In this document: piece by piece, positions 17,270 through 49,531 of the stretch | How the letters are laid out: the number at the start of each line of letters is the position of its first letter | Position numbering within the stretch: position 1 is the first letter of the stretch | From: Paludibacteraceae bacterium | Lineage (GTDB): Bacteria; Bacteroidota; Bacteroidia; Bacteroidales; Paludibacteraceae | DNA length: 49,531 nt | NCBI GenBank assembly: GCA_017962005.1 | Contig: JAGCWE010000084.1 | Coordinates: forward strand, 1 to 49,531 | Reading direction: 5' to 3' | Position numbers and translations under genes: made by a program | Notes under the pieces: model-generated | Databases searched by the model: none | Seen by the model: the letters and a program-made list of their open reading frames with translations, nothing else | Told to the model about the DNA's origin: nothing

Positions 17270-17312
17270 CGGTCGGTAAATAAGACAGATACAACCAAAC
17301 CACCATATAAAT

Positions 17313-19406: not shown

Positions 19407-19456
19407 GACAATACACGCTAATTGGAGTATTCGGTATAGTCTGGTGGGAATACATC

Positions 19457-29010: not shown

Positions 29011-29014
29011 CTCT

Positions 29015-31052: not shown

Positions 31053-31131
31053 AAAAAGCAAAATAATTGCTTAAAAATTTGTGCATTATAGAAATTATCG
31101 ATACGTTTGCCGCAATTGGAGAAAACGGCGT
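31053..31131 (+). repeat. 79-bp promoter block, copy 1
   Basis: This block aligns without gaps to 36036-36114 (offset 4983) with scattered mismatches. It includes the -33 and -7 boxes and the downstream GAAAACGGCGT. Here it precedes only a stub gene; at 36036 it precedes the giant secreted-protein gene. Confidence 0.88.
31078..31109 (+). promoter_or_regulatory. Promoter upstream of the signal-peptide stub
   Basis: TTTG (31078-31081), a 20-bp spacer and TACGTTTG (31102-31109). It has the same layout as the giant-gene promoter, so any transcript from here would carry only the stub. Confidence 0.7.
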
Positions 31132-31210
31132 AAGTCTTCGGATTGTTTTTAGACCTGCCCGTAAGTCAAAAAGGTAAACCATAATACGAATGTATAAAAA
31201 TCCAAAACCT

Positions 31211-31261
31211 ATGAAAAAACTACTTTCTCTTTTTGTGCCGCTGCTGGCACTACGGGGATAG
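31211..31261 (+). pseudogene. Signal-peptide stub of a secreted repeat-protein gene
   Basis: ATG plus 15 codons and TAG encode MKKLLSLFVPLLALRG. The first 14 codons match the start of the secreted protein gene at 33004 almost base for base (MKKLLSLFVPLMAL), then similarity stops abruptly and the frame ends. It is read as the 5' remnant of a third family member left after deletion or recombination. It follows a good promoter, so it may still be transcribed. Confidence 0.75.
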
Positions 31262-31452: not shown

Positions 31453-32871
31453 ATGGAAGAGCAGTTGTACGGACGCGAGAAAGAGGCAAAGCTGATAGAG
31501 AGTTATCTCCAAAGCGGCAGGTCGGAGTTCGTGGCGGTGTATGGGCGCAGACGTGTGGGAAAAACCTTTCTGCTGCGACAAGTGCTGGACAAGCATCTGT
31601 GTTTCAGTTTCACCGGTATGGCGAACACCACTGGTACGGAGCAGTTGAGGAACTTCAACCTTACATTGAGGCAATACCGTCCGGATGCCCCTGTATGTGC
31701 GAACTGGCAGGAGGCTTTTGTGGCGTTGCAGCGTTTCCTTGATAGGGTGAAACGGGAGACGAAGGTGGTTCTCTTCGATGAGTTGCCGTGGATGGACACT
31801 CCGAAGTCGCATTTCCTGTCCGCTTTCGAGCATTTCTGGAACGCTTGGGCTTCCGCCCGCAGCGACATCAAACTGTTTGTATGCGGCAGTGCCGCCTCGT
31901 GGATGTTGGACAATGTAATCAACAGCCACGGCGGACTGCACAACCGCGTCACGCACGAGATGCTGTTGCAGCCTTTCACGCTCGGCGAATGCAGGAGTTA
32001 TTTGCATGCCCGGCGTTTCGGCTACAGCGACAAGGAGGTGGCGGAGTGTTATATGGTGTTCGGCGGCATACCTTATTATCTGTCGCTTTTGGACAAAGAG
32101 CAGAGTCTTGCGCAGAATATCGACAGGCTTTTCTTCTCCCCTACCGGCGAACTGCGCAACGAGAAGGAGAATCTTTTCCGGTCGCTGTTCCGCCACTCGG
32201 AGGACTACACCGCCGTCATCAACGCTCTTTCGGCGGAAGTCAAGGGACTGACCCGCTCGCAACTGCTTGACGCGACCAAACTGAACAACAACGCTTTGTT
32301 CGGGAAGCGGTTGGATGAGTTGGAGAAATGCGGTTTCATCCGGCGGTACGAGGATTATTCAAGCCGGCAGAGGCAGACCGTGTTCCAACTTACAGACCCG
32401 CTGTGTCATTTCATCCATTCGGTGGCGGAGAAGAACCGGCATCATGATGAGGAGTTCTGGTCACATTCACAACTTAGCCCGATGTACAACACTTGGGCGG
32501 GACTGGCTTTTGAGATTCTGTGCCTGAACCATATAGCGCAAATCAAGCAGGCGTTGGGCATATCGGGGATGCAGACGAGTGTGTACTCGTGGCGCACGCC
32601 CGCCGATGCCGGCAGAGGGGCGCAGATAGATATGGTGATTGACCGTGCTGACCGCTGTGTCAATGTGTGTGAGATGAAGTTCTGCCGCGAGGAATACGAA
32701 CTGACACGTCTGGAGAGCGAGCGGCTGGAACACCGTCTGTACAGTTTTATGCGATACGCGGAGCCGCGCAAGTCACTCCGCCTGACGATGATAACGCCTT
32801 TCGGCATCAAACAGAACACACACAGTCATCTCGTGCAGAACGAAATAACAATAACTGACTTGCTCAAATAA
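31453..32871 (+). CDS. AAA-family ATPase with C-terminal DUF234 / nuclease-fold domain
   Basis: A 472-residue protein of the ATPase_2 plus DUF234 family, often multicopy in Bacteroidales and of unknown function. The P-loop is GRRRVGKTFL (residues 31-40), Walker B is VVLFDELPWMD (about 105-115), and FVCGSAASWM may be the sensor strand. A winged-helix-like region follows (LTRSQLLDATKLNNNALFGKRLDELEKCGFI). The C-terminal domain around residues 388-410 has an Asp (GAQIDMVIDR) followed by CEMKF (E-x-K), a pattern of PD-(D/E)XK nuclease folds. It has its own promoter and lies between the stub and the intact secreted-protein genes. Links to mobile DNA are suspected for the family, but no transposase or terminal repeat is visible here. 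Confidence 0.88.
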   Translation: MEEQLYGREKEAKLIESYLQSGRSEFVAVYGRRRVGKTFLLRQVLDKHLCFSFTGMANTTGTEQLRNFNLTLRQYRPDAPVCANWQEAFVALQRFLDRVKRETKVVLFDELPWMDTPKSHFLSAFEHFWNAWASARSDIKLFVCGSAASWMLDNVINSHGGLHNRVTHEMLLQPFTLGECRSYLHARRFGYSDKEVAECYMVFGGIPYYLSLLDKEQSLAQNIDRLFFSPTGELRNEKENLFRSLFRHSEDYTAVINALSAEVKGLTRSQLLDATKLNNNALFGKRLDELEKCGFIRRYEDYSSRQRQTVFQLTDPLCHFIHSVAEKNRHHDEEFWSHSQLSPMYNTWAGLAFEILCLNHIAQIKQALGISGMQTSVYSWRTPADAGRGAQIDMVIDRADRCVNVCEMKFCREEYELTRLESERLEHRLYSFMRYAEPRKSLRLTMITPFGIKQNTHSHLVQNEITITDLLK

Positions 32872-33003: not shown

Positions 33004-35886
33004 ATGAAAAAACTACTTTCTCTTTTTGTGCCGCTCATGGCACTGTTCCTCACCCTTTCGCCGCAGACGGCGAAAGCGGACTATGTGGATGACAACCTCA
33101 TAAAGCCGTTGACAATTGAAAAAACAGCTACCACTTCAATTAATTTAAAGTTTTATAGAGCTGCTGCAACATCCGGAAATTCAAAAGTGACCATTAACTT
33201 ACAATACAGATACTACAAAAATGGTGCGTGGTCAGCATGGACAAATGTCGCAACAGCTGGTACAACGACATACGGTGGTTTGTATTCAGCCTCTACTTCT
33301 GCAACATTATTGAATGGTGTAGCAGGAAAAATTCAATTACGAGGAATAAACCCCACTGGTTTTAGTAAAAGTTCATCAGATTATTATCAATTTGAAATAA
33401 TTTCCGGTGCATCACCAAGGCCAAGCATTACTATATCTGGTAATATAATGTCATTGATTGTTGGTTATGACACAGACAATGAAACTACAGCTCAAGCAAC
33501 TTTGGCGGCTGCTGATGAAATACCATCGGAGTATTGCTTTTACAAGTTATTTCCAAAAATAACATCAAGCTCTATGGTTCCTTTATACACGGAAGAACTG
33601 ATTTTCCCTGCAACGAAACTCAAAAACCATTGTTACGAGAGTATGTTTGATGGATTAGTAAATAGTTCATACGGTCTTTACAGTGCTCCGACTTTTTTAG
33701 CCACTGACTTTAAGGATAAAGATGGTAATGATGTTTCAAGTTCTTTTGCTCGGTTGTGTTATGGTTGTAGTAATTTCACGAATATCCATGTCAATTTCCA
33801 GCATTGCTATGCTGCCGGAGAAAACAATCTGACCAACTGGTTGAACGGTTGCAGTACAAAGAAAACTATTTATGCTCCTGAGGCTTTCCGCACCTGCGCC
33901 AATAACAATTCCGGTAATTCGGATGCTGTATGGAACGGCTGGACCAAAACAGAGTGGAGCAAGGATGTGGGTCCTTCCACACACACCGTCACGCTTGATG
34001 TGGATGCCACGGACAGTTACGGTACTCTGACAGCCGCTTCGATAGCGGATGTGCCTCACGGCGCGACCATCACCGTTAGCAGCAACACCATAACCATCAA
34101 CGGCACGACCGTCACCGCAACCAAGACATCTGACGGCGGTGGTTACAATTATGCCTTTGCCGGTTGGTACAATGGCGCGTCACAGTTGACAGGTAACAGC
34201 AATACCGTGGACGACGATATGACCATCACCGCCCACTTCACCCGCGCTGTCAACACCTACTACGTGTCATTTGACCCGGACGATGGCAGCGGCACGATGA
34301 CCGACCAGACCTTCACCTACGGCGTGGCACAGACTCTCAAACCGAATGCCTTCACCGGCCCGGCTGCCACCGTAACCTACAACTACAACGGCGCGACAGG
34401 CGGCACCAGCCCCGCTTCTGAATCAGTCAATGCCTCCTTCTATATGTGGATGGACGATGACTTCAATTTATACGAGGACGGACAGAGCGTCAATAGCCTC
34501 ACCGCCACCAACGGCGCGACCGTGGCTCTGACAGCCATTTGGGATTTCGACCAGGAAGTGACACTCCCCTCACCCGTCAAGACAGGTTACACATTTGTTC
34601 AGTGGGAATATGGAGAGGCTCCGCTTATTCTCATTGCCGGCGAAGCTGGAGAAGGGTATGCTCCTGACGAGGATGTCACATTGAACGCTCATTGGAACGC
34701 TATCACCTACAACCTCACCTACAACGGTCTGGAAGGTGCGACACACTCCAACCCGGCGACCTACACCATTGAGACACCGACCATCACGCTTGCCGACCCG
34801 GGTACACGCACAGGCTACACCTTCACGGGCTGGACTTGCGGCGGCAGCCCCATTACACAGATAACAGTTGGCTCCACAGGCGACAAGACCATCACCGCCA
34901 ACTGGACGGCGCAGAACTACACATTGGCTTGGGTGACGGACGGTGACGCGCTGACGGGCGACTACACTACCGGCACAGTGGCTTACAGCACGACCATCGT
35001 TGCTCCGAACACACCGACCAAGACGGGTTACACCTTCACGGGCTGGCGCAGCAGCATCAGCGGTAATGTTGAAACGCCCTCGACCATGCCCGCACAGAAT
35101 CTGACCTACACCGCCACATGGGAAATTGCCTTCTCGGGCATCATCCTGTGGGACAACAAGGACGATGATTACTACGATGCGTTCAAAGCCCACCACGGCG
35201 AAACGGCGGATGTGCTCTATCCCCGCCAGTTCACCCAGGGCAACTGGTCCACACTTTGCCTGCCGTTCATTGTGAACCGCGCCACGATGATGTCGCAGAA
35301 GCTGAACGGAAGCGTCTATGAGTTCAAGTACGCGACCGGCGACGCCGATGAAGGTGACAACGTAATGCTGTACTTTGCGAAAGCCAACACGATGGAAGCA
35401 GGCAAGTGCTATATCGTGAATGCGAACAGCGCGCTGGCTGCCAAGACATCATTCACGTTCAGCAATGTGACCTTCAATCTGGCGAACGATCTGGAAGAGC
35501 ACCTTACCTCGGCATCGGCTTACGACAACTTGCCGGAGACCAAGACGCAAGGCACAATCGGACTGGTAGGCACGCTGCGCAAGGGCACGCTGATAGGAAC
35601 AGCCACCGGCAACACGTACATGGGTCTGAAGAACAACAAGATCTGGTATCCGAACCCCAGTGTAGGCAATGTCATCCTTGCGTACCGCGGCTTGTTCCGC
35701 AGCACGGAGGCACTGAACGCCGGCCGCGTGCGCATCGTTGTGGAAGGCGAGACCGTGACCGAACTGGAGGTGGTCAACGGCGAACTGAAAGAAGCCACCG
35801 AGGCACGCAAGTTCGTCCAGGACGGCATCCTCTACATCGAGCGTGACGGCGTAATCTACAACGCACAGGGACAGAAAGTGAAGTAA
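33004..35886 (+). CDS. Secreted InlB/Listeria-Bacteroides repeat protein, smaller paralogue
   Basis: A 960-residue secreted protein. The signal peptide (MKKLLSLFVPLMALFLTL, ending near AKA) begins at 33004; the frame is open 36 codons upstream without signal-like features. Residues of about 30-300 form a module with RGINPTGFSKSSSDYY and EYCFYKLF and a short Cys-bearing leucine-rich part; this DNA is clearly more AT-rich than the rest. Next come beta repeats of the Listeria-Bacteroides / InlB B-repeat type (GYTFTGWTCGGSPIT, TGYTFTGWRSSISG). The last 215 or so residues, starting near WDNKDDDYYDAF and ending DGVIYNAQGQKVK, are almost the same as in the giant gene downstream. It is probably surface-exposed or released; no ligand or enzyme motif was seen. 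No clear promoter was found directly upstream. Confidence 0.88.
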   Translation: MKKLLSLFVPLMALFLTLSPQTAKADYVDDNLIKPLTIEKTATTSINLKFYRAAATSGNSKVTINLQYRYYKNGAWSAWTNVATAGTTTYGGLYSASTSATLLNGVAGKIQLRGINPTGFSKSSSDYYQFEIISGASPRPSITISGNIMSLIVGYDTDNETTAQATLAAADEIPSEYCFYKLFPKITSSSMVPLYTEELIFPATKLKNHCYESMFDGLVNSSYGLYSAPTFLATDFKDKDGNDVSSSFARLCYGCSNFTNIHVNFQHCYAAGENNLTNWLNGCSTKKTIYAPEAFRTCANNNSGNSDAVWNGWTKTEWSKDVGPSTHTVTLDVDATDSYGTLTAASIADVPHGATITVSSNTITINGTTVTATKTSDGGGYNYAFAGWYNGASQLTGNSNTVDDDMTITAHFTRAVNTYYVSFDPDDGSGTMTDQTFTYGVAQTLKPNAFTGPAATVTYNYNGATGGTSPASESVNASFYMWMDDDFNLYEDGQSVNSLTATNGATVALTAIWDFDQEVTLPSPVKTGYTFVQWEYGEAPLILIAGEAGEGYAPDEDVTLNAHWNAITYNLTYNGLEGATHSNPATYTIETPTITLADPGTRTGYTFTGWTCGGSPITQITVGSTGDKTITANWTAQNYTLAWVTDGDALTGDYTTGTVAYSTTIVAPNTPTKTGYTFTGWRSSISGNVETPSTMPAQNLTYTATWEIAFSGIILWDNKDDDYYDAFKAHHGETADVLYPRQFTQGNWSTLCLPFIVNRATMMSQKLNGSVYEFKYATGDADEGDNVMLYFAKANTMEAGKCYIVNANSALAAKTSFTFSNVTFNLANDLEEHLTSASAYDNLPETKTQGTIGLVGTLRKGTLIGTATGNTYMGLKNNKIWYPNPSVGNVILAYRGLFRSTEALNAGRVRIVVEGETVTELEVVNGELKEATEARKFVQDGILYIERDGVIYNAQGQKVK
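34912..35561 (+). repeat. Long direct repeat, copy 1 (3' part of smaller paralogue)
   Basis: About 650 bp that recur at 48879-49531, nearly identical by eye except for a variable patch at 35165-35210 with a 3-bp length difference. The similarity in copy 2 runs into the window edge, so the real repeat may extend through the end of the gene. Confidence 0.9.
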
Positions 35887-35959: not shown

Positions 35960-36035
35960 TTTTGTTTGCGCCATTATCTTGCAAACTGGTCGGATTTTTG
36001 CCGTATGAATGTGCAAAAAGATAAGGAAAAAACAT

Positions 36036-36114
36036 AAAAAGCAAAATAGTTGCTTAAAAATTTGCATATTGTTGAAATTATTGATACGTTTGCCGCTGTT
36101 GTAGAAAACGGCGT
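36036..36114 (+). repeat. 79-bp promoter block, copy 2
   Basis: Ungapped match to 31053-31131. The AAAAGCAAAATA, GCTTAAAAATTTG, GAAATTAT, GATACGTTTGCCGC and GAAAACGGCGT parts are conserved; differences fall mainly between the promoter boxes. Confidence 0.88.
36061..36092 (+). promoter_or_regulatory. Promoter of the giant secreted-protein gene
   Basis: TTTG (36061-36064), a 20-bp spacer and TACGTTTG (36085-36092). The predicted leader is about 145 nt, long for this window. Confidence 0.75.
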
Positions 36115-36245
36115 GGTTTGCGTTTTGTTTTTCTGACAATGAATCAGACGAATAAGGAGAAGACTCCGATCCGCAGATTCAGCGGATTGAACCGATATCT
36201 TTTCAGCAGTAAATTAGTAGAAAAAATAGTATAAATCATAAGCGT

Positions 36246-39200
36246 ATGAAAAAGCATCTATCTCTTTTGGCACTTTGTGCCGCCATGTTATTCGCTTTTG
36301 CCCCGCAGACGGCAAGGGCGCAAGTGAACGAGTATCTCAAAGTGGTCGGAAACGCCACCGTTGTGGTCAAACAGACAGGTACGGTCAGCGAATGGCCCGA
36401 CCTGTGGTACCAGATTGACGAGGGTAACTGGGTGCAGGTTCTTGAACCATGTTCTTTGACTGTGCCGACCAACTCTGGCAGTGTTCCGCATTATATGCGC
36501 TTCAAGGGTAACAACCCCGACGGTTTCAACAAGAGTAGTTCTAACTTCATCTCTTTCGCTATTACGGGCGGCAATCCTGCCGTACAGGGAAACGTGATGT
36601 CGCTGATAGGTGGAGATAATTTCTCATCGCTCACCACTATCCCCTGCGACTATTGCTTCTACGCGCTGTTCTGCCCGTACCCGCCGGCTTCGTTCTCAAC
36701 CTCGTTCAGCAGTTCGTTATCCACTTCCACGAGTCTGAGCAAGACACACGAACTGGTATTGCCCGCCACGACCCTGACGGCGTACTGCTATGCGTATATG
36801 TTTGCCGGCAACTCAGGGCTTTACACCGGTCCCTCGCTGCCTGCCACGGTGATGCAGCCCTGGTGCTATGCGCACATGTTCGACAACTGTATGAACAGTT
36901 TTTACAGTTCGACGGCGGCGAACAGCGGCTGGTATTTTTCCGCCATGCACCTTCCCGCCCAGCAGTTGGCTGAAGGCTGTTACGCGTTTATGTTCAACCG
37001 TTGCAGCAGCCTATATAACAACGATGCGAACAATTATTATATTCTGCCCGCCGAGGAACTTGCCCCCAAGTGCTATATGGGTATGTTCGGTCTGTACAAC
37101 GCCAAATGCACCACGCTCAAGTATGTGGAGATCATGGCGACCTCCCTGCAGGACCGCCGTGGCGACGACCTGACCAACTGCTGCGCCTATATGTTCAACA
37201 ACGCCATAGCCAATGCCACATCATATGGCCGTGGCGGTCTGTCCCTCCGTTTCTACTGGCTTGACTGGGGTGCGTACAACGGCTCGTCGCAAACAGGAAA
37301 CGGACCGACGCAAAGCTGGTTCCTGGGTTACAGTGCGAGTTACAACACTTTCCTATACCAGAGCGGTCTGACTCCCATTACGAAAGGAGCTTCCTCTAAT
37401 TATGCCAATACCATGTATTGCAATCCGTTCCCGTATTCAAGCACTCTGACCTCCAATAGTTTCACCTACCTCACTTTCGACTGCAAAACCAACGGCGGTA
37501 CGTGGGAGTTGGATGATGACTACAACGTGGATATGCGCCGCGTAGTGCGTGCGGGCTACACCGCCAAGACGGTGCCTGCCGCCCCGCACAAGTTAGGTTG
37601 CACCTTCCTCGGCTGGTTCACCGCCCCCGACGGAGGCACACAGGTCAGCGAAGCCACTATCAAAACGCAGACCACGGCGCAGACCTACTACGCGCACTTT
37701 ATGCCCAACGATGTGGACTTCACTGTCACCATTGCCAACGGCGCGCACGGACACGTGGTGGTAAGCCGCAACAACGCCCCTACTGCTACTTACACCGCCA
37801 CCTCTTCGGTGCACAATATGTCCGAACTGACCATTACCGCCGTGCCTGACGCGGGTTACCGCTTCGCGGGCTGGACAGGCGAAGCCGCCACCATCAAAGC
37901 CGCCGAGGATGCAGGCAACACCTACTATCTGATTGACGATATCACCGTGGGCGCGACCTTTGAGGCGGACGAATGCACCGTGACCATCCAAACGCCCGCC
38001 GAGTACGGCACATTGGCAGCATCCGACGGCGTGAACGCTTATGCTTCAGGCGCCACATACACCTTCAACCGCCAGCTGGACCTCAACAAGGTGCTGACTT
38101 TCACCGCCACACCCGCCACCCACCGCCTCTTCACGGGCTTCACGGGTACGGAACTGGCAAACGTGACCGCCGCGCCTTACGTCTATGACCAGGCGGTGAC
38201 AGGCACCTACACCATCACCGCGCTGACCCCGGACGAAGTGACCGTGGGCGCGACCTTCGTCAAGCCGACTTTCACTGTCACTACATCTATCACTGGCAAG
38301 AACGGAGGTTACGTTACCCTCACTGCCGATGGCTATCCCGACCGCACGGGCAGCGGAACGTATGACATTGACACACGAGTTACCTTGACTGCAACTCCCT
38401 CTAACGAGATGTTCAAGTTTGTCCGCTGGACGGATAACGACAGCGACAACCCCGTCCGCATAATTGACCTTACCGCCGATGTTGCTCTCGAAGCCGAGTT
38501 CGACCTTGACGGAGACCTCTGGTCTGCACCCGCCACCGTGGATGTCTATTCGTCAGGTGTCACCCCGACCTGCACTTCCACTATTACCACATCCAACTAC
38601 CGCATCCTGTACAACCTCGATCCTGTGGTAGGAAATGACGGTATAACCTACACGCCCGTTGATATGGGCGGAGGTGTCGCTTGGGCGGACAGGAATGTCG
38701 GTGCTGCTGACCCGACAAAGTCCGGTTCCTATTTCTATTGGGGAGGAACAAAGGCCTACGGCGAAGACGGTTACACAACGGTATCAACCGCAAACTACTA
38801 TACAGGGGTGGCAGATATGACGGCAACCACATCAACTGCTGTCGCTTCACAGTATCCCTTGCCCGCTGAAGCCGATGCCGCAACGCAAAAGATTGGCGGG
38901 CAATGGCGTATGCCTACTTACTATGAAATGAATAACCTCATTTCTTCCACTTACACAACCAACGCGCAGGTTAATTATAACTATACAGTTACCAATAAGT
39001 ACTACACAGACGATAAGATTTTTATTCCTGCCGGTGGACGATATGCAACTGGTTTGGCTAAAGGGGCGGCATACCTATGGACAAGTACCGTAGCATATAA
39101 GAACGGAGCAAGTAGCAAACCGAATGTATATTATAATCATGCAATAAGAGGCAATACCACATCTACCGGCTATGCACTTGCCTACTATGCGATGCCGGTT

Positions 39201-42200
39201 CGTGCCGTCTATGTACCCTCGTTCGAGACCTGCACGCTGACCGTGATTGTTTATTGGGCTTCGACAGCCAAGTATTACTACAAGTACATCTGTGAAATAG
39301 GGCAGACCGTCACCATCAACCAGCATCCTGCCACTTCAGGCTATGCCTTCTCCGCTTGGCGCGAGAACACCTATTCCGGCGCGCAGCTTTCCACCGACAA
39401 TAGCTATTCCGTCACCCTGACGGAGAACCAGACGATAGCGGCGCATTACGTATCCAACAGCAACGCCAAGTGGCTTCTGACCGCCACGGCTTCTCCAGGC
39501 AAGGGCGGATATGTGGACGGAGGCGGATATTACCTTTCCGGCACGAGCGTCACGCTTACAGCCACACCGAATGCCAACTACCGCTTTGTCCGTTGGTCAG
39601 ACGGCAATACCGACAACCCGCGCACCATTACGATGCCCGGTGCCAATACGACTTATACGGCGGTGTTTGACGGCTCTGTGGCGGGCGTTACCTCCGCTGC
39701 CGCCAACGAGGAAGTGTTCGCTTATACCACCAACACCAACTACTACAAGATTCTGTATGATTATCCGTCTTCCGTAACAGGCGATGACGGCATCACGTAT
39801 CGTCCGGTGGATATGGGTAACGGCGTGCTGTGGGCGAACAAGAACCTCGGTGCCGCTACTGAAACGGATCCTGGTAACTTCTACGTATGGGGCAAGACGA
39901 CACCCTTCACATCGGTGGCTACCGGCACGTGGTACGCCGGTTCGATGGATATGCTGCTTACCACATCACAGGATGCCAGACCGCAATACCCCCTTCCCGC
40001 CGATGCGGATGCCGCCACGGTGAATATGGGCGAGCGGTGGCGTATGCCGAACTATGCGGAAGTCTATTATCTTGCCAACCCCACCGGAGCCACGGAAGCG
40101 GGTTCCGCCTCCGCAGGTATGACCTATACCAACAAACTCAGCGGCGAAACGCTGTTCATCCCCAATTCGGGGTTATATAAGTCGGGTACGACCAAGACCA
40201 CCAACCAGTGTATGTTCTGGGGCAGCACGCTCGGCGGCTTCAACACCAACGGCTATAACAGTACCGCCGCCTATTACCAGAGCGGCGGAGCAAGTTATTC
40301 CAGTTCCTCGTATTCGTATCTTTATTTCGCCCTTCCCGTCCGCGCCGTGTATGTGCCTCCGTTCGAGACCTGCACGCTGAAAGTGACGGTATCAGGCGGC
40401 TCGAACCTTGTGGGTAATAGCAGCACGAGTACCTATTATTACTACTACATCTGCGAGGTGGGCCAGCGCATCCGTCTGACCGCGCAGCCTCATGCCGTGG
40501 GAGCAACCGATTGGACCTATGCTTTCACGAAATGGACAGATGATAACAACAGTAGCGCCGTACTTGGAACTGACCCGTTGATTGATTTTGTCATCACCGG
40601 CAATACGAACATTACAGCCACGTTTGCTGCCACCACATCCAATTTCTCCACCGTCTATGCTTTGCCGACACCCCGTTCGGGAGGTCTGGTCTATGGTGTG
40701 GGACGTTACGTAAACGGTGCGACCACCCAACTGCACGCCGTACCGAATGAGGGCTACACCTTCGTGAAATGGGAGGACAACAACTCCACCAACCCCTACC
40801 GCGAGATAACCGTGAACGGACACGCCACCTACAACGCCGTCTTCACCACCGCTGTGCCTGCCGCAGCCTCTGCGCACAAGTATGTGAACGTATGGCACGA
40901 GGCGACCACTACCACCACCGAGACGCTCTACGACGGCTCGCCGCTTGAGACCTGCACGCTCACGGTCAAGACCTACCAGTCGAACACCGCCAAAGCCACT
41001 TACAACTACGTCTGCGAGAAAGGACAGACAGTGACGGTCAGTGCCTTCACTAATACATCTTCTTACTCGTTGCTCCACTGGACGAATGCCGACTACGACA
41101 TAATGAGTTATGACCCGACGGTGGAATTGGTGGTTACGGGCAATATGACCTATTACGCCACCTTCTATACCACCCGCGTCACGACCCGCACGCTGACGCT
41201 TGTTTCTTCGCCGTTGGAGGGTGCAATCTTCGATGGTGTGCTGAAGACCACCCGTCAAGGTGTGTATGAGGACGGACAGGTGACGAAACTCATTTGCCAC
41301 CCCAATCCGCACTACCGCTTCCTCTACTGGGATGACGACCACGAGCTGACCGACCCCGAGCGCATCGTAACCGTGACAGCCGACCACACTTATACGGCGG
41401 TGCTGGAAATGGATTATGACCTCTCCACTGTTCAGTCCGAAGATGCTTTTGCCAGTGTGTATGGAAGTGGAACCTATATTGGAACTTATATAAGGTACAA
41501 ACTGCCTGGCTATGATGCCAACGGCTACCGCCCCGTGGATGTGGGTGTCGGTGTGGCATGGGCGAACAAGAACATCGGAGCCGCTGACTCCACCAAGGCG
41601 GGCGACTACTTCGTCTGGGGTTTGACCACTCCCGCCACCACGGTGAACAGCAACGGAAGTGCCGGAACCTACTATGCCGGTGTCACATCCATGACCACCA
41701 CAGCGGGGTATAGTACCATTCCGCAGAACACCCTGCCCGCCGAGGCAGATGCCGCCACACAGATTATGGGCGAGCGGTGGCGTATGCCGAACTGCACGGA
41801 GATATACAACCTGCAGGGCGTTATCGGCAGCGGTTCCGCCGAGGAAGGACAAGCCTCTGCCGGATACCGATATACCAATGTGGAAAACACGTCACAATTT
41901 ATCTATATACCTGCCGCAGGATGTATGAAAACGAGCGGTTCCGGAACCGTGACCACCGGTACGACCCAGTTCTGGGGCAGTACGGTGGGTACAATCAGTG
42001 GCGCATCCTCGCGTCCGTCCTACTACCTGAGCGGCTCTTACAGTGCCGGTTCCACTTCCTACTACGCTTGGAGTGCCATGCCGGTTCGCGCCGTGTATGT
42101 GCCGCCGTTCGAGACCTGCTCCGTAACGGTGAAGACTCCTACCAACCAGTATATGTACATTTGTGAGGTGGGACAGCGCATCACTATCACCGCTTTCTAC

Positions 42201-45200
42201 GGTGCTGCAACGGCTTCTAATCAGAATTATCGGGTGCGTGATTGGATAGACCAGAACAATGTTGTCGTCTCCACCGACCAGACCTATTCTTTCATTGCCC
42301 TCTCGAATGTGACACTGACGGTGAACTTCGTTGCTCCCACCACGAAGCGCACGCTTACCTTCAATGTGTCGCCTGCCGGAACAGGTACAGTGAACAACCT
42401 TGCGACTTTTGTCGGCAACTATGAGGACGGTCAGCATGTGCGTATTCCTGTCAAGGCGGCGGAGAACTACCGCTTTGCATACTGGAGCGATGACCACAGC
42501 AACACCGACCCCAACCGTATCTTCACGGCTACAGCCAACGCAACCTACACCGCCGTCTTCGAGCAGGATCTGTCGCAGGCTGCGGAAGCCACTATCGCGC
42601 AGGCTGCTACCGCCGACACCACGAAGATTCTCTATCCGCTGCCCGTCCTGTACAAGAACTATATGTTCTACACGCCTGTGGATATGGGTACAGGTACGGC
42701 TTGGTGTGATTACAACGTGGGCGTTACCGCTCCGTCTAGCCCGAACGGCAGTTACTTCTACTGGGGTGGTACGTCCGCCAAAACTGCTTACAGATATCAG
42801 GCCAGCACAACGTATTACTACAGCGGCATCACATCGCTCACCGATGGTTCCGAACTGCCGACAGGCGCGGATGCCGCTTATAGTGCGTTGAACAGCAACT
42901 GGCGCATCCCGTCGAAAGCCCAGTGGGATGCCCTTGTGAACAACTGTTCTACAGGAACGGCGAACACCTTTGTCAATCCGGGGGATGCTTCCAAGACGAT
43001 TACGCTGCCCCAGACAGGCGTGTATGCTCCGACCACCAGTTCCAACGTAAGTATCACCAACGGCGTTACGGGTTATTGGAGCCGCACGCTGGCGGTGAAG
43101 AACACCTCCACCGTCTATGCCAGCCAGCCGTGGTGCTATTCCAATGGCGAGGTCATGTATGGCGACGGCGTACCTAACGCCAGCGGGCATGGCTATATCT
43201 GCTACGGTATGCCTGTCCGCGCCGTCTATCAGCCTTCGTTCACGCCCGACACCGTGCGTGTCCGCTATACCAACGGCGAGTCTGTGACGCGCACGAACAC
43301 CTATCTCGTGCAGCGCGGACAGCCCGTGAAAGTGACAGCCATCCCCGATGACGGATATATATTCTCGAAGTGGAGTGACGACAATGTGGATGCCACCCGT
43401 TCGTTCTTCGTTACCGGCAACGTGACCCTCACCGCCGAGTTCGCCAAGAAATCGGAGAATCCCATCATCAACTTCATGAGCGAGGACGGACTGACGAAGA
43501 TAACTTGGATGGAAGTGGAGAAGAATACGGTGCCCGTCTATGACGGCGAGGAGCCAACAAAGGAATCTACCGCCGAGTTTGACTATCCGTTTGCAGGCTG
43601 GACTGACGCGAACGACAATTTCTACGCCAAGAACACGTCTCTGCCCGCCGCCACGGAGGATATGGACTACTTCGCCACCTTCACGCCCGTGCGCCGCAGC
43701 TACACCGTCACCTTCCTCAACTGGGACGGCTCGACCCTGCAGGCAACTGATGTGGAATACGGTCAGACCCCGTCCTACTCCGGCACACCGACCCGTCCGG
43801 CGGACGCACAGTACACCTACACCTTCAACGGTTGGGACAACGAGGTGGTTGCCGTAACTGGTGCAGCCACCTACACCGCCACCTACAGCAACACGCTGAA
43901 CAGCTACACCGTCACCTTCAAGGATGCGGCGGGCAACACCATTCAGAGCGGTACGCTGGACTATGGCGTGGTACCGACCTTCACGGGCGACATTCCTGTG
44001 AAAGAGTCTGCCGACCCAGACTATGTATGGAACTTCACCGGCTGGACTGACGGAAACGACAGTTTCACCGCCAAAGGCACGGCTCTGCCTGCTGTCGGCG
44101 GTACAACCGTCTATACGGCAACGTATGTGTATGATCTGAACTACCTGACCATCACCAATACGAGTAACAAGACAGGTTACGTTTATCTTGACCGCCGCTC
44201 GACAGGAGCCTACAGCACCAACAACCTGAATGTGGCGTACAGCATCAACGGCGGTGCATGGACGGACGAGATCACCTATGGCACTTCCGCTCACGACGGG
44301 TTGTCCGTCTCCCTGCCCGCCGGCCAAAGCATACGCTTCCGCGGCTACAACCTGATCAACGGCGCATGGCAGTGCGGCAAGAGCAGCAGCATCTATTTCG
44401 GCTTCAACTTCCCGACCTCCGGCACCACCTTCACGGTGAGCGGCGATCTGATGACCCTCGTGGCGTATCAGAACGGCGAGTTGCATACCTCCGAACATCC
44501 GATGGGGGCTTACTGCTTCCGTCAGTTGTTCAAGGACTGCAACAAACTGACCGACGCTTCCGGGCTGAAACTCTCCGCCACGACATTGAGCAACTACTGC
44601 TACCAGGCGATGTTCAGCGGCTGTACGGCACTGACCTCCGCGCCGCAGATATCCGCCACCTCGCTGGCGCAGTACTGCTGCGCAAGCATGTTCAGCGGCT
44701 GCTCGGCACTGACCACCGCACCGGCATTGCCCGTCACCACATTGGCTCCGTACTGTTACCAGTATATGTTCAGCGGCTGCACGCACCTGACGGCTACGCC
44801 GCAATTGCCTGCCACCACGCTGACGGAAGGCTGCTACCAGTATATGTTCCAGGGCTGCACTCTGCTGACCGATGTGCCCGAGGCATTACCCGGCACGAAC
44901 CTGCCGCAGAACTGCTATGCATACATGTTCAGCGGCTGCTCGGCTCTGACCACCGCGCCGGAGATTATGGCTGCCGCCGATGCCGTTCCCGGACAGGGGG
45001 CGTGCGACAATATGTTCGCTTCTTGCACCAGCCTGACCAAGGCTCCGTCACGGTTGCTGCCGACCACCGTCACCAACAACCAGACCTATGGTCACATGTT
45101 CTACAACTGCACCTCGCTGACCGAAGGACCGGACATCTGCGTGACGAACATCAATGGTAATTCGTCCAACACCAAGATACAATGGATGTTTGGCAATGCT

Positions 45201-48200
45201 ACGGCTCTGACGAAGATACGCGCCTATTTCACCGCTTGGGGGGCGATGTCGTTCTGCTCATATTGGACTAATAGCATCAACACTACGGGTTCGTTCTACT
45301 GCCCGCCTGAACTGGAACGCCGCTACAACGGCAGCGAAAGCACGCCGTCGTTCATACCCACTAACTGGACCGTCTATTCCTACGACATCACCCTCATCCC
45401 CGTAGGCGGACGTTGGGCGGACAACACAAGTACGGAGAAGCAGTTCACATGGCGCACCGACAAGAGCGACATTGACGACTTCATCGCGGCGCAGGTGGAC
45501 GGGGAAGACAACAGCCTGATACAGGGCTGGTACCTCAACGCCGCCTGCACGGAAGCTACCACGGAGGAAGCCGTGAAAGCCGACCTCAGCGTACAGCGGA
45601 CCGCCGAGACCAAGCGCATCTATGTCCGCTTGAGCGGCACGAACCCGACGCTGCTTTGGGACTTCAACGGTGGTACCACCACCTCCACGGAGGCGGAATA
45701 CACCTTCGGTGTGATGGAGGTGGGTGACCCGATCACCGCTCCCGCCAACCCGACACGCTTCGGCTATACGTTCATGGGCTGGTCATCCGCACAACCTGCC
45801 GACAACACGCCGGTTGCAGTGGCAGCAACGATGCCTGCCACCGACCTCATCTACACCGCCATCTGGCAGGTGCTGCCCACCTACCTCATTACTGCCAACA
45901 CCGGCATTATGGGTACGGCAACTCTGACGGCGGACCATTATGATGATGCCGAAGGAAGCGGAAGCTACATCGAAGGCACGCAGGTTACTATCACCGTAAC
46001 CCCGTATTTCGGTTATACGTTCACCGGCTGGAGCGACAGCAACACGCAGAACCCGCGCACCATAACCGTCGGCAGCACGGCGGCGACCTACACCGCGCAG
46101 TTCTCCGCGATGGACGAGATTGACATCACCATGACCGAGGGCACGCTTGACTTCCCGACCTACGCGAAGAACTCGTTTGCCGTCATCGGCGAGAACGACC
46201 AAGTGGAAGTGCGTCTGTACTTCGGTGCTGCCATCTCCTCCGGCAACCACCTCGCCAATCTCTCTACGGACATAGCCAACAGCTACATCCTGCCCGACGG
46301 AGAGGAGAAACGGCAGATCGCTTCGGCTACGCTTGCCACAGTGACATACTTCGGCGAGACCTTCCGCGCGGCACGCCTCGTGGCGAAAGTGACCGACACC
46401 GACGGACGGAAGTACAATATCGACATCTACACCAACTACTGTATCAACTACGCCACCTTTGAGGAGGACTATACCTACAAGTATTACAGCAGTTACCTCC
46501 CCACTGAATCCAGTTGGGTGAACGGTCGCTCGTTCGAGTATGGCGAGGACAACTACATCGGTACGATGGTCATCCGTCCGGGCAATATCATGCGCTACTT
46601 CCTCAGTCAAGCGGGAAGTGACATCTATGATGTCTGCCAGATACAGTTGCAGTTCTATCCTGACAATACCAAGCCGGGTACCATACCGACAGGCGTTTAT
46701 CCGATCAACTCGACGCAGGCTCCGGGTACCGTCTATATAGGTGCCATTCCGAGCAATTATCTGACCCGCCAGAGCAACTCCGTGAACGGCTATGCAGGCA
46801 CAGGTTCGTGGGTGTTCCACGATATGGAGAACCAGTCCACGTATGTCCGCACGATAGACAACTGGGTGCTGCGCGGCGGATATGTGGAAGTGGTGAATGT
46901 GGACGAGAACTACTTCGTGCATGTTCACGCCTACACCGACGGCTATGCCACCAACGGCGAGGCGGACAATACGGTGATTGACTTCACCGCCGGTATCGGT
47001 TCTGTCTCAGCTCCTGTTACGGCGACGAACATCACCATTGCCGCGCAGACCACAGGCGGCGAGCAGCTCGCGGGTGCTGTGACGGCGGCAGTTGCCGGTG
47101 CTTCCAACTGGACGGATGTCACGCTAGGCCAGGGTACCCACAGCCTCTTCAGCGGCAACACGCTGGATATGACGGCAATGAAGCCCGGCTATATGTTCGA
47201 CCACTGGGAGGTGAACGGCTCACCTGTTGCAGGTGAGGACTTCACCTACAGTTACACGGTTGGTGCTTCCGAAGCGAATATCGTAGCTGTGTTCGCGGTG
47301 GATACCCGTCCGTATTACACCCTCACCACCGAGACTGGCGGACGCGGTACGGTTACGCTGACAGCAGCAGGCTACATGGCACAGACCGGCAGCGGCTACT
47401 ATGCGGAGAACACCGACGTTACGATGAGCGTTGCAGCCAATACGGGAAGCGCGTTCCTGCGCTGGAGCGACGGCAACACGCAGAACCCGCGCACCGTCAC
47501 CGTGACAGGGAATATCACCTACACGGCAGAGTTCAGCCTTGAGTCGGCTGACCGGGCAGTCAATGTCTATCAGGCGGCTGCGGCTGACACAATGAAGATC
47601 CTGTACAACCTTGATGCCAAGACAGGCTTGGACGGCAAGACCTATATCCCCGTTGATATGGGTTACGGCGTGGCATGGGCCGACCGCAACGTGGGTGCAA
47701 CCGGCACCAACGTAATAGGCAGTTACTTCCGCTGGGGCGACCCGGTTGCAAGCAATACGTTTAATTCGTCTATTCATATTGATGCAAGCGGATTCTCCAC
47801 CGGTGACAAACTCTCCAACGAGCAGGATGCCGCATACGTCAATATGGGAACATGCTGGCACATGCCTGACAAGAATGAACTGCTGGCATTGAAGGGTAAT
47901 ACCGACTTGTCGAACAACAACACCTTCACCAACAGGACGGACAACACCAAGTCCATCGTCTTCCTTGCCGGAGGTTATAAGGGACAAAGTCATTATGATC
48001 CGGATTACCAGTACTACTGGTCAAGGGAATATGCTATGTATGGCTACAACAGCAAGACCAAATCCAACGAGAGAACCTGTTTCGCATTCGTAAGATGTAC
48101 GGACAACGTGTATTATGCGAGCAACTATGACAAGGATGACTATTATGGCAACGAGTACTATCTCGGTATGCCCGTCCGCGCCATCTACGAGCCGCAGTAC

Positions 48201-49531
48201 GCCACTTACACGCTGACCATCAACATCGGCTCGCAGAAATATCAGTACATCTGTCAGGCAGGTCAGAACATCACCGTGACGGCTGTCGCCACCGAAGAGG
48301 GTTACGTCTTCGACAAGTGGACGGAGGACGACAACACCAGCGCCACCCGCACCTTCACCTTGACAAACGATATGACCTACACCGCTACCTTCGTACTCGG
48401 GACACAATACTACGATCTTACCATTGAGAGCAACAACACGGACTATGGTACGGTAGATGTGCCTGCTATTGATGACGTGGAAAGCGGCACTGAAATCTCT
48501 GTCAGCGGCACCACGCTCACTATCGGCGAGACCACCGTTACCGCCACAAAGACGACGGACGACGCGCAGTACACCTACACCTTCAGCGGCTGGACGGACA
48601 CCGAGGGCAACGCCCTTCCTGCCACCGTGACAGGCGACCTCAACATCCGCGCCAACTTCACCCGCACGACCAACACCTACACCGTGACATGGAAGAACGG
48701 CGATGTGGTGCTTGAGACGGACGAGAATGTGGCATACGGCGCGACCCCGACATACGACGGCTCTAACCCGACCAAAGACGCTACAGCCGAATACTCCTAC
48801 GCCTTCAACGGATGGACACCCGAAGTGGTTGAGGTAACAGGCGATGCTACCTATACGGCTGCCTTCACCGGGACCCCGCAGAACTACACGCTGACGTGGG
48901 AGACGGACGGCGACGCGCTGACGGGCACTTACACTACCGGCACAGTGGCTTACAGCACGACCATCGTTGCTCCGAACACACCGACCAAGACGGGTTACAC
49001 CTTCACGGGCTGGCGCAGCAGCATCAGCGGCACTGTTGAAACGCCCTCGACCATGCCCGCACAGAATCTGACCTACACCGCCACATGGGAGATTGCCTTC
49101 TCGGGCATCATCCTGTGGGACAACAAGGACGATGCGTACTACACCCAATTCAAGGATGACTACGACGGCACTACGGCGGATGTGCTCTATCCCCGCCAGT
49201 TCAAACAGGGCAACTGGTCCACTCTGTGTCTGCCGTTCAATGTGAACCGCGGCACGATGATGACGCAGAAGCTGAACGGAAGCGTCTATGAGTTCAAGTA
49301 CGCGACCGGCGACGCCAATGAAGGCGACAACGTAATGCTGTACTTTGCGAAAGCCAATACGATGGAAGCGGGCAAGTGCTATATCGTGAATGCGAACAGC
49401 GCGCTGGCTGCCAAGACGTCATTCACGTTCAGCAATGTGACCTTCAATCTGGCGAACGATCTGGAAGAGCACCTTACCTCGGCATCGGCTTACGACAACT
49501 TGCCGGAGACCAAGACGCAAGGCACAATCGG
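36246..49531 (+). CDS. Giant secreted multidomain repeat protein, 3' end beyond the window
   Basis: One frame runs from the ATG at 36246 to the window edge: 4,428 codons, with the reading frame spot-checked about every kilobase. A signal peptide (MKKHLSLLALCAAMLFAFA, cleavage after ARA at residue 25) opens it. Residues of about 118-385 are a Cys-bearing BspA/DUF285-like leucine-rich block (CYAYMFAGNSGL), repeated at about 2635-3030 (CYQYMFSGCTHL). Between and after come many InlB-type beta repeats (GYRFAGW, NYRFVRWSDGNTDNPRTI). Five copies of a domain like the Fibrobacter major paralogous domain start near 799, 1182, 1761, 2140 and 3795. A stretch at about 3290-3590 matches nothing I know. 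The C-terminus copies the smaller paralogue, so only about 110 more codons are expected. Probably a surface or released adhesin-like protein; no enzyme motif or sorting signal was seen. Confidence 0.9.
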   Translation, partial: MKKHLSLLALCAAMLFAFAPQTARAQVNEYLKVVGNATVVVKQTGTVSEWPDLWYQIDEGNWVQVLEPCSLTVPTNSGSVPHYMRFKGNNPDGFNKSSSNFISFAITGGNPAVQGNVMSLIGGDNFSSLTTIPCDYCFYALFCPYPPASFSTSFSSSLSTSTSLSKTHELVLPATTLTAYCYAYMFAGNSGLYTGPSLPATVMQPWCYAHMFDNCMNSFYSSTAANSGWYFSAMHLPAQQLAEGCYAFMFNRCSSLYNNDANNYYILPAEELAPKCYMGMFGLYNAKCTTLKYVEIMATSLQDRRGDDLTNCCAYMFNNAIANATSYGRGGLSLRFYWLDWGAYNGSSQTGNGPTQSWFLGYSASYNTFLYQSGLTPITKGASSNYANTMYCNPFPYSSTLTSNSFTYLTFDCKTNGGTWELDDDYNVDMRRVVRAGYTAKTVPAAPHKLGCTFLGWFTAPDGGTQVSEATIKTQTTAQTYYAHFMPNDVDFTVTIANGAHGHVVVSRNNAPTATYTATSSVHNMSELTITAVPDAGYRFAGWTGEAATIKAAEDAGNTYYLIDDITVGATFEADECTVTIQTPAEYGTLAASDGVNAYASGATYTFNRQLDLNKVLTFTATPATHRLFTGFTGTELANVTAAPYVYDQAVTGTYTITALTPDEVTVGATFVKPTFTVTTSITGKNGGYVTLTADGYPDRTGSGTYDIDTRVTLTATPSNEMFKFVRWTDNDSDNPVRIIDLTADVALEAEFDLDGDLWSAPATVDVYSSGVTPTCTSTITTSNYRILYNLDPVVGNDGITYTPVDMGGGVAWADRNVGAADPTKSGSYFYWGGTKAYGEDGYTTVSTANYYTGVADMTATTSTAVASQYPLPAEADAATQKIGGQWRMPTYYEMNNLISSTYTTNAQVNYNYTVTNKYYTDDKIFIPAGGRYATGLAKGAAYLWTSTVAYKNGASSKPNVYYNHAIRGNTTSTGYALAYYAMPVRAVYVPSFETCTLTVIVYWASTAKYYYKYICEIGQTVTINQHPATSGYAFSAWRENTYSGAQLSTDNSYSVTLTENQTIAAHYVSNSNAKWLLTATASPGKGGYVDGGGYYLSGTSVTLTATPNANYRFVRWSDGNTDNPRTITMPGANTTYTAVFDGSVAGVTSAAANEEVFAYTTNTNYYKILYDYPSSVTGDDGITYRPVDMGNGVLWANKNLGAATETDPGNFYVWGKTTPFTSVATGTWYAGSMDMLLTTSQDARPQYPLPADADAATVNMGERWRMPNYAEVYYLANPTGATEAGSASAGMTYTNKLSGETLFIPNSGLYKSGTTKTTNQCMFWGSTLGGFNTNGYNSTAAYYQSGGASYSSSSYSYLYFALPVRAVYVPPFETCTLKVTVSGGSNLVGNSSTSTYYYYYICEVGQRIRLTAQPHAVGATDWTYAFTKWTDDNNSSAVLGTDPLIDFVITGNTNITATFAATTSNFSTVYALPTPRSGGLVYGVGRYVNGATTQLHAVPNEGYTFVKWEDNNSTNPYREITVNGHATYNAVFTTAVPAAASAHKYVNVWHEATTTTTETLYDGSPLETCTLTVKTYQSNTAKATYNYVCEKGQTVTVSAFTNTSSYSLLHWTNADYDIMSYDPTVELVVTGNMTYYATFYTTRVTTRTLTLVSSPLEGAIFDGVLKTTRQGVYEDGQVTKLICHPNPHYRFLYWDDDHELTDPERIVTVTADHTYTAVLEMDYDLSTVQSEDAFASVYGSGTYIGTYIRYKLPGYDANGYRPVDVGVGVAWANKNIGAADSTKAGDYFVWGLTTPATTVNSNGSAGTYYAGVTSMTTTAGYSTIPQNTLPAEADAATQIMGERWRMPNCTEIYNLQGVIGSGSAEEGQASAGYRYTNVENTSQFIYIPAAGCMKTSGSGTVTTGTTQFWGSTVGTISGASSRPSYYLSGSYSAGSTSYYAWSAMPVRAVYVPPFETCSVTVKTPTNQYMYICEVGQRITITAFYGAATASNQNYRVRDWIDQNNVVVSTDQTYSFIALSNVTLTVNFVAPTTKRTLTFNVSPAGTGTVNNLATFVGNYEDGQHVRIPVKAAENYRFAYWSDDHSNTDPNRIFTATANATYTAVFEQDLSQAAEATIAQAATADTTKILYPLPVLYKNYMFYTPVDMGTGTAWCDYNVGVTAPSSPNGSYFYWGGTSAKTAYRYQASTTYYYSGITSLTDGSELPTGADAAYSALNSNWRIPSKAQWDALVNNCSTGTANTFVNPGDASKTITLPQTGVYAPTTSSNVSITNGVTGYWSRTLAVKNTSTVYASQPWCYSNGEVMYGDGVPNASGHGYICYGMPVRAVYQPSFTPDTVRVRYTNGESVTRTNTYLVQRGQPVKVTAIPDDGYIFSKWSDDNVDATRSFFVTGNVTLTAEFAKKSENPIINFMSEDGLTKITWMEVEKNTVPVYDGEEPTKESTAEFDYPFAGWTDANDNFYAKNTSLPAATEDMDYFATFTPVRRSYTVTFLNWDGSTLQATDVEYGQTPSYSGTPTRPADAQYTYTFNGWDNEVVAVTGAATYTATYSNTLNSYTVTFKDAAGNTIQSGTLDYGVVPTFTGDIPVKESADPDYVWNFTGWTDGNDSFTAKGTALPAVGGTTVYTATYVYDLNYLTITNTSNKTGYVYLDRRSTGAYSTNNLNVAYSINGGAWTDEITYGTSAHDGLSVSLPAGQSIRFRGYNLINGAWQCGKSSSIYFGFNFPTSGTTFTVSGDLMTLVAYQNGELHTSEHPMGAYCFRQLFKDCNKLTDASGLKLSATTLSNYCYQAMFSGCTALTSAPQISATSLAQYCCASMFSGCSALTTAPALPVTTLAPYCYQYMFSGCTHLTATPQLPATTLTEGCYQYMFQGCTLLTDVPEALPGTNLPQNCYAYMFSGCSALTTAPEIMAAADAVPGQGACDNMFASCTSLTKAPSRLLPTTVTNNQTYGHMFYNCTSLTEGPDICVTNINGNSSNTKIQWMFGNATALTKIRAYFTAWGAMSFCSYWTNSINTTGSFYCPPELERRYNGSESTPSFIPTNWTVYSYDITLIPVGGRWADNTSTEKQFTWRTDKSDIDDFIAAQVDGEDNSLIQGWYLNAACTEATTEEAVKADLSVQRTAETKRIYVRLSGTNPTLLWDFNGGTTTSTEAEYTFGVMEVGDPITAPANPTRFGYTFMGWSSAQPADNTPVAVAATMPATDLIYTAIWQVLPTYLITANTGIMGTATLTADHYDDAEGSGSYIEGTQVTITVTPYFGYTFTGWSDSNTQNPRTITVGSTAATYTAQFSAMDEIDITMTEGTLDFPTYAKNSFAVIGENDQVEVRLYFGAAISSGNHLANLSTDIANSYILPDGEEKRQIASATLATVTYFGETFRAARLVAKVTDTDGRKYNIDIYTNYCINYATFEEDYTYKYYSSYLPTESSWVNGRSFEYGEDNYIGTMVIRPGNIMRYFLSQAGSDIYDVCQIQLQFYPDNTKPGTIPTGVYPINSTQAPGTVYIGAIPSNYLTRQSNSVNGYAGTGSWVFHDMENQSTYVRTIDNWVLRGGYVEVVNVDENYFVHVHAYTDGYATNGEADNTVIDFTAGIGSVSAPVTATNITIAAQTTGGEQLAGAVTAAVAGASNWTDVTLGQGTHSLFSGNTLDMTAMKPGYMFDHWEVNGSPVAGEDFTYSYTVGASEANIVAVFAVDTRPYYTLTTETGGRGTVTLTAAGYMAQTGSGYYAENTDVTMSVAANTGSAFLRWSDGNTQNPRTVTVTGNITYTAEFSLESADRAVNVYQAAAADTMKILYNLDAKTGLDGKTYIPVDMGYGVAWADRNVGATGTNVIGSYFRWGDPVASNTFNSSIHIDASGFSTGDKLSNEQDAAYVNMGTCWHMPDKNELLALKGNTDLSNNNTFTNRTDNTKSIVFLAGGYKGQSHYDPDYQYYWSREYAMYGYNSKTKSNERTCFAFVRCTDNVYYASNYDKDDYYGNEYYLGMPVRAIYEPQYATYTLTINIGSQKYQYICQAGQNITVTAVATEEGYVFDKWTEDDNTSATRTFTLTNDMTYTATFVLGTQYYDLTIESNNTDYGTVDVPAIDDVESGTEISVSGTTLTIGETTVTATKTTDDAQYTYTFSGWTDTEGNALPATVTGDLNIRANFTRTTNTYTVTWKNGDVVLETDENVAYGATPTYDGSNPTKDATAEYSYAFNGWTPEVVEVTGDATYTAAFTGTPQNYTLTWETDGDALTGTYTTGTVAYSTTIVAPNTPTKTGYTFTGWRSSISGTVETPSTMPAQNLTYTATWEIAFSGIILWDNKDDAYYTQFKDDYDGTTADVLYPRQFKQGNWSTLCLPFNVNRGTMMTQKLNGSVYEFKYATGDANEGDNVMLYFAKANTMEAGKCYIVNANSALAAKTSFTFSNVTFNLANDLEEHLTSASAYDNLPETKTQGTI
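36600..37400 (+). repeat. BspA/DUF285-like leucine-rich block 1
   Basis: Repeats of about 23-35 residues with the pattern C-Y-x-x-M-F-x-x-C/N-x-x-L and interleaved LPATxL strands (VLPATTLTAYCYAYMFAGNS, LPATVMQPWCYAHMFDNC). It begins after the IPCDYCFYALF element that also occurs in the smaller paralogue. Confidence 0.75.
38641..39215 (+). repeat. Fibrobacter-major-paralogous-like domain, copy 1
   Basis: From ITYTPVDMGGGVAWADRNVG through YFYWGG and WRMPTYYEMNNL to MPVRAVYVPSFETC. Confidence 0.75.
39790..40356 (+). repeat. Fibrobacter-major-paralogous-like domain, copy 2
   Basis: From ITYRPVDMGNGVLWANKNLG through FYVWGK and MGERWRMPNYAEVYYL to LPVRAVYVPPFETC. Confidence 0.75.
41527..42102 (+). 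repeat. Fibrobacter-major-paralogous-like domain, copy 3
   Basis: From YRPVDVGVGVAWANKNIGA through YFVWGL and MGERWRMPNCTEIYNL to MPVRAVYVPPFETC. It is closest to copy 2, especially around the WRMPN motif. Confidence 0.75.
42664..43230 (+). repeat. Fibrobacter-major-paralogous-like domain, copy 4
   Basis: From YTPVDMGTGTAWCDYNVG through YFYWGG and SNWRIPSKAQWDALVNNC to MPVRAVYQPSF. Confidence 0.75.
44146..45345 (+). repeat. BspA/DUF285-like leucine-rich block 2
   Basis: Begins with a copy of the N-terminal module (RFRGYNLINGAWQCGKSSS, MGAYCFRQLFKDCNKL), then at least seven regular repeats of the type CYQxMFSGCxALTxAPxL. The copies are more regular and Cys-rich than in block 1, suggesting later expansion. 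Confidence 0.78.
47629..48195 (+). repeat. Fibrobacter-major-paralogous-like domain, copy 5
   Basis: From TYIPVDMGYGVAWADRNVGA through YFRWGD and MGTCWHMPDKNELLAL to MPVRAIYEPQY. Separated from copy 4 by about 4.4 kb. Confidence 0.75.
48879..49531 (+). repeat. Long direct repeat, copy 2 (giant gene 3' part)
   Basis: Second copy of 34912-35561, in the same orientation 14 kb away and in the same reading-frame context. Similarity continues to the last base of the window. Confidence 0.9.

Follow-up and report, generated by a model that had tools for sequence, protein, structure and literature searches.

An intact giant gene for a modular, signal-peptide-bearing protein in a Paludibacteraceae genome, with blocks probably exchanged between species and a recurrent C-terminal tail

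Internalin-type and BspA-type surface proteins carry InlB B-repeats and leucine-rich blocks. The giant protein described here likewise unites both kinds of module in a single exported chain, and it departs from those proteins in its scale, its Fibrobacter-type domains, its C-terminal tail, and a match to the leucine-rich family LRR_5 that falls slightly below the cut-off. Giant proteins are well documented in bacteria. Among bacterial proteins of more than 5,000 residues, surface proteins for attachment and recognition form the second main group as outlined in PMC11573180, a size class of which the giant here is slightly short. In Apilactobacillus kunkeei, Giant1-5 are summarised as extracellular proteins of 3,000-8,000 residues whose genes lie one after another, with short intragenic recombination and exchange between lineages (PMC12863079). 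Consecutive giant and paralogous genes, and probable exchange by recombination, recur at our locus; however, the A. kunkeei giants belong to another phylum and have, in that summary, beta-solenoid N-terminal domains, whereas the Bacteroidales protein is built from modules of Fibrobacter, leucine-rich, and InlB type and ends in a tail that it shares with other proteins.

For Lcl, the Legionella collagen-like adhesin, the outline in PMC11162425 gives sulphated glycosaminoglycans as what it recognises and mentions homologues in Bacteroidota. Four of the giant's five Fibrobacter-type domains weakly match Lcl_C, a faint likeness to the Lcl C-terminal domain and the Fibrobacter succinogenes major domain proteins. 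Unlike Lcl, the giant has no collagen-like family in Pfam scans of the whole protein and its segments, and its domains are repeated within the chain and singly below cut-off. Among signals for type IX secretion, those of type A have five motifs, and the last 22 residues of one sufficed to export a reporter (as outlined in PMC10202324), so that a short tail acting as a signal is not absurd. The giant resembles type IX cargo as presented there in having a Sec signal peptide, a conserved C-terminal end, and SprA and PorU in the genome, but differs from cargo with type A, B, or C domains in that its tail is of ~30 residues and lacks a consistent Pfam or NCBIfam match. Multi-modular cellulases of a rumen Bacteroidetes family have been linked to type IX secretion, in the brief account of PMC5831590.

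The window, that is, the whole stretch of 49,531 nucleotides analysed here, is an entire contig (C40) of a 2.08-Mb genome in 134 contigs. Its features, in window coordinates unless another contig is named, are as follows.

33004..35886, +, upstream paralogue, complete; 960 residues from the ATG at 33004, with C-terminal cassette and tail as in the giant
36010..36132, +, upstream region of the giant gene; second copy at 31027-31150, 81% identical
36246..49531, continuation probably C36:78-399, +, giant gene; 4,428 of its codons lie in the window, and C36 probably brings it to 4,536 residues
36246..36323, +, Sec signal peptide, cleavage ARA-Q, by inspection
36324..37445, +, N-terminal Cys-rich leucine-rich block with CYAYMF motifs; no Pfam LRR match; divergent between species
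37488..37697, +, Listeria-Bacteroides repeat (PF09479)
37722..38450 (approximate limits), +, divergent InlB B-repeats (PF18998)
38523..39245, +, Fibrobacter/Lcl_C-type domain 1
39246..39671 (approximate limits), +, InlB-type repeats, two stretches (Pfam)
39663..40385, +, Fibrobacter/Lcl_C-type domain 2
40386..41387 (approximate limits), +, InlB-type repeats, four stretches (Pfam)
41388..42125, +, Fibrobacter/Lcl_C-type domain 3; placed by alignment only, singly without Pfam match
42126..42545 (approximate limits), +, InlB-type repeats, two stretches (Pfam)
42528..43265, +, Fibrobacter/Lcl_C-type domain 4; divergent between species, adjoining a nearly identical flank
43266..44225, +, InlB-type repeat (residues 2339-2402, Pfam), the remainder repeat-like by eye
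44223..45125, +, second Cys-rich leucine-rich block, LRR_5-like, slightly below the Pfam cut-off
45657..46046, +, Listeria-Bacteroides repeat and InlB-type repeat (Pfam)
46023..47315, +, region common to the giant and the C36 paralogue (43% identical); residues ~3410-3600 divergent between species
47316..47540, +, InlB-type repeat (Pfam)
47523..48230, +, Fibrobacter/Lcl_C-type domain 5
48255..49082 (approximate limits), +, InlB-type and Listeria-Bacteroides repeats (Pfam)
48871..49531, +, C-terminal cassette; 93% DNA identity to 34904-35561 of the upstream paralogue

A sequence-only reading of this DNA had claimed one plus-strand frame of at least 4,428 codons with a signal peptide and ordered repeat domains. 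The frame is confirmed: from the ATG at 36246 to 49529 there are 4,428 codons without a stop on the plus strand, and the frame runs open off the contig end. Signal peptide (by inspection) and repeat domains are both present, and the chain contains 64 cysteines. Under a model of independent bases with the same composition, the chance of an open frame this long is ~10^-70. Stops in the other five frames across the gene number 32 to 264 (161 and 128 in the other forward frames), and since one minus frame has just 32 stops over the whole repeat-rich gene, antisense frames inside it, such as 41892-44804 (970 codons), were taken as shadow frames. The same reading held bacterial proteins of more than 4,000 residues to be rare, which is overstated for this genus, where open frames of 2,000 to 4,600 residues recur. 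Other giant families occur in the same 2-Mb genome: contig C125 (L061 reverse complement, 1083-10511 and 11165-19585) holds adjoining open frames of 3,143 and 2,807 residues, and C108 (L063, 2-6637 and 7108-12969) adjoining frames of 2,212 (cut) and 1,954 residues, each pair with similar tail ends.

Beyond the window, the gene probably continues on contig C36, whose first 77 bases are exactly the last 77 of C40, in frame; the last 108 residues given here thus come from a separate contig. C36 adds 108 codons ending in DGVIYSAQGQRVE and a stop, for a total of 4,536 residues, and the end of the completed chain reads RDGILYIERDGVIYSAQGQRVE. About 110 further codons ending like DGVIYNAQGQKVK had been predicted, and this candidate continuation comes close to that in length and ends nearly as foreseen. 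The overlap alone is no proof of the join, because the 77 bases have one further copy inside the upstream paralogue (35485-35561) and because two other contig-end pairs, among few compared, overlap by 141 bases (C2 and C129, each exactly with C81); for the latter reason the idea that 77 bases is the assembler's word length was not upheld. What backs the join is the gene order on C36, compared with that in two other genomes, G049 and G015. Behind the tail, C36 carries a paralogue of 1,833 residues that has the giant's N-terminal domain (61% identical), and next a protein starting MKKQFFLVLTALLGG; in G049 a paralogue lies 1,025 bases after the intact giant; and in G015 a 2,481-residue frame with the giant's N-terminal domain precedes a 1,869-residue paralogue frame and a protein starting MKKHFILVLTALFG. 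Contig C21 was rejected as the continuation: it has a similar tail at its start, without overlap to the window end, and no frame of more than 400 residues behind it. That C21 (L065 1-110) starts inside a near-identical tail indicates that the assembly has cut one or more further members of the cassette family.

The kinds of domain named from sequence alone proved secure to different degrees. The InlB-type calls stand strongly: over the whole protein these repeats exceed the Pfam cut-off (PF18998, E 2.7e-91; PF09479, E 7.2e-26), sit between the other domains, and account for much of the sequence. CYxxMF motifs mark two Cys-rich leucine-rich blocks, one spanning residues ~27-400 and the other ~2660-2960; the latter reaches 25.0 bits against the 27.7-bit cut-off of BspA-type LRR_5 (PF13306), and the N-terminal one had no match in a Pfam scan. 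The Fibrobacter-type domains, five of ~240 residues each, are divergent. They carry a DMGxGVAWA-type motif at residues 806, 1189, 1765, 2146, and 3804 and terminate in P[VI]RA[IV]Y, and when they are aligned with two from the C36 paralogue (seven in all), six are 37-46% identical to the first. For the whole protein Lcl_C (PF07603) scores 39.6 bits, over its cut-off of 34.9, and the four domains that match it singly do so at 14.1-16.6 bits (E 0.0097 to 0.059); domain 3, scanned singly in Pfam, had no match. One of the seven domains is matched by the NCBIfam Fibrobacter model TIGR02145 (E 3.2e-4) and one by its Pfam counterpart PF09603 (E 0.046), and a profile of the Fibrobacter-type domains had no match among solved structures.

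Directly upstream, the complete paralogue shares the giant's C-terminal end. The likeness of the window's last 661 bases to it begins abruptly in the last repeat and runs on in C36 beyond the stop into hairpin-like sequence, and over its last 133 residues the paralogue has 94% identity to the C36 end. Inspection of the giant's upstream region (36010..36132) found TTG-N20-TACGTTTG, which resembles a Bacteroidetes promoter consensus. Behind the copy of this region, the start of the paralogue's signal peptide is repeated (31213-31261) and meets a stop after 16 codons; an ATPase_2 gene (31453-32871) and then the intact paralogue at 33004 follow, and it looks as if an ATPase cassette had been inserted behind the upstream paralogue's promoter. 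In G049 (L104), a 452-codon frame (6159-7514) lies directly before the relative of the upstream paralogue (7638-12013), which consists of two overlapping frames and, unlike here, is oriented opposite to uvrC; the arrangement is an inversion with a broken copy.

Relatives of the giant are found within what is probably a genus of rumen-type Paludibacteraceae. The N-terminal 500 residues were matched at E <=0.001 in 45 of 101 sampled genus genomes (own genome included), often only through the terminal repeat, and among the matches listed 8 of the 101 genomes fall below 1e-60. The orthologue in G049, another species, has 4,590 residues, with signal peptide and stop, and is 75% identical to the giant over residues 1-4284; it carries five Fibrobacter-type motifs. 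A relative in G083 has 3,857 residues and also five Fibrobacter-type motifs, and giant residues ~2644-3109 are without an aligned counterpart in it.

Divergence from the G049 orthologue is distributed very unevenly along the gene. The stretch from mnmG to uvrC has 78% DNA identity between the two genomes, and the giant as a whole gives pS 0.45 and pN 0.16. Among its 86 fifty-codon segments, pS is <0.1 in 8, <0.2 in 13, <0.3 in 26, and >0.6 in 25, whereas none of 38 segments from six genes nearby (Pfam identifies mnmG, uvrC, and tsaE; apt, proB, and proC were assigned by inspection) falls below 0.3, the minimum being 0.33. The Fisher p of 2e-5 for this difference at pS <0.3 is too small, since neighbouring segments are not independent. 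One minus-strand gene (28048-29025) was left out of the baseline because its codon mapping had slipped (76% identical residues, pN 0.71). Segments with pS <=0.08 cover residues 832-931, 2319-2418, 2469-2518, 3260-3309, 3654-3753, and 3854-3903, and blocks with synonymous divergence near zero lie within 43266..44225; pS of ~0.3 to 1.0 with high pN marks residues 1-430, 2176-2318 (domain 4), 2669-2809, and 3410-3600 and the C-terminus. Of the presumed heads, both leucine-rich blocks and domain 4 vary most between species; variation does not extend to all of them, since domains 1 and 5 belong to the best-conserved stretches of the gene. Such a pattern suggests that some blocks of the gene probably passed from one species to another in the recent past, and the simplest reading of these comparisons would be exchange of modules by recombination, within as well as between species.

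Near-zero synonymous divergence might instead reflect selection on the DNA or on codon use, a possibility to which the raised GC at third codon positions lends something (0.70 in the giant, 36246-49529, vs 0.51 in mnmG). Such selection is nevertheless improbable as the explanation, for low pS is specific to the pair with G049: against G083, which gave no match for a housekeeping baseline, just 1 of 73 segments is <0.25. One might also suspect that the giant itself is an artefact in which repeats have collapsed or fused several shorter genes into one frame, given that the assembly is in 134 contigs, that contigs end in these repeats, and that the window ends inside a stretch also present upstream. 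We rate this as very improbable and reject collapse on account of the intact G049 orthologue, in which the Fibrobacter-type and leucine-rich motifs follow one another as they do here, all on a single 120-kb contig. The giant is a real single intact gene, and the claim of one giant secreted mosaic gene is well supported, not least by this orthologue in another species.

With C36, the giant's last 30 residues form a tail, K-x3-NG-x-LYI-x-R-NG-x2-Y-x-AQG, that recurs across the genome. A query with the upstream paralogue's C-terminal 238 residues, a stretch without NCBIfam match, hits 34 places in it, several through only the last 30 to 55 residues. A profile built from 30 tails, trained on this genus and partly on this genome, found 80 places here (100 candidates scored) and, in an 81-genome sample of the family, 53, 50, and 54 places in three other genus members; of the remaining 77 genomes, 20 have 1 to 12 places and 57 none. 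Across the order the tail was found in 8 of 295 genomes (two of the genus and one more of the family), a count that may miss divergent tails outside the genus on which the profile was trained. Neither database gave the 30 tails a consistent match: in NCBIfam two families matched one member each (best E 0.058) and in Pfam eight families one member each (best E 0.0083), with no type IX family in either.

The tail accompanies signal-like N-termini. Under a crude, lenient rule (any ATG within the first 90 residues) these are found in 29 of 32 complete tail frames vs 4 of 19 other window genes, and under a first-ATG rule in 25 of the 32. In three genomes outside the profile, all 24 tails end <=6 residues from the stop and all 18 complete tail frames have a signal-like N-terminus; these come from 20 stretches with the strongest tail matches listed, in open frames of up to 830 residues. 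As a type A signal the tail is not supported. TIGR04183 (type A) has 10 places in this genome at the E-value used for the tail profile, and none of the own-genome tail places listed overlaps them; comparison with a type A profile of nine ends (L058 left out of ten), cut by position, aligned 11-13 columns at a probability of 3-8%, and the tail's YdAQGq end alone resembles a short stretch of that profile. In the titles and opening lines of abstracts on type IX signals the tail is not described, and it may already be in print.

Within the genome are an SprA translocon (2,569 bits) and a PorU sortase (1,011 bits), which, together with a signal peptide and a tail at opposite ends of the protein, suggest type IX export. 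Whether tail and SprA occur together tells nothing about this route, because 278 of the 295 genomes of the order match SprA and only 8 have the tail. The type IX system would most likely be what carries the giant through the outer membrane, the tail serving as sorting signal, and the protein would then remain on the surface. We suggest, as a tentative proposal, that the tail may belong to an undescribed class of C-terminal export or sorting signal in one genus, used by giants whose binding modules pass from species to species.

The tail could also be the mere end of a shared domain, seeing that a domain of roughly 240 residues before it is common to many tail proteins. To this reading, which we think rather unlikely, can be opposed the matches on C125, C108, C91, C39, C16, and C129, which span only the query's last 30 to 55 residues, and the checked set, in which the tail abuts the stop and accompanies signal peptides. 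As to function, we hold with moderate confidence that the giant is exported by Sec and displayed on the surface as a modular adhesin, its lectin-like and leucine-rich modules set on InlB-type spacers. Repeats do make up much of its sequence, and large surface proteins of bacteria have roles in aggregation and biofilm formation (in the outline of PMC12863079), so that an exported structural or matrix protein of a surface layer, of aggregation, or of a gliding track might be envisaged in place of a glycan-binding adhesin. Five lectin-like and two leucine-rich modules nevertheless exceed the needs of a plain matrix protein, and it is the leucine-rich blocks and domain 4 that vary most between species, although domains 1 and 5 do not; a matrix role is therefore, in our estimate, unlikely.

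In the adhesin we favour, the heads, five lectin-like (Fibrobacter/Lcl_C-type) and two leucine-rich, would be held apart along a stalk of InlB-type repeats. A long stalk with several heads that may bind glycans is suggested by Lcl, the closest named relative of these domains, and its recognition of sulphated glycosaminoglycans; the ligands here might be glycans of plant fibre, mucin, or other cells. Adhesion, anchoring, and the route of export are in this respect predicted properties. The blocks of low divergence would have been exchanged by recombination, and exchange of heads may alter binding or antigenic properties.

Giant modular surface proteins are known already, and here the same giant can be traced across species. 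Holding blocks of apparently very different age within one gene, it may offer a test case for how gut bacteria diversify their binding repertoires. If the tail is indeed a sorting signal, it would add an extra class of C-terminal export signal and would flag, all at once, the proteins likely to make up the surface proteome of a rumen-type genus that is uncultured.
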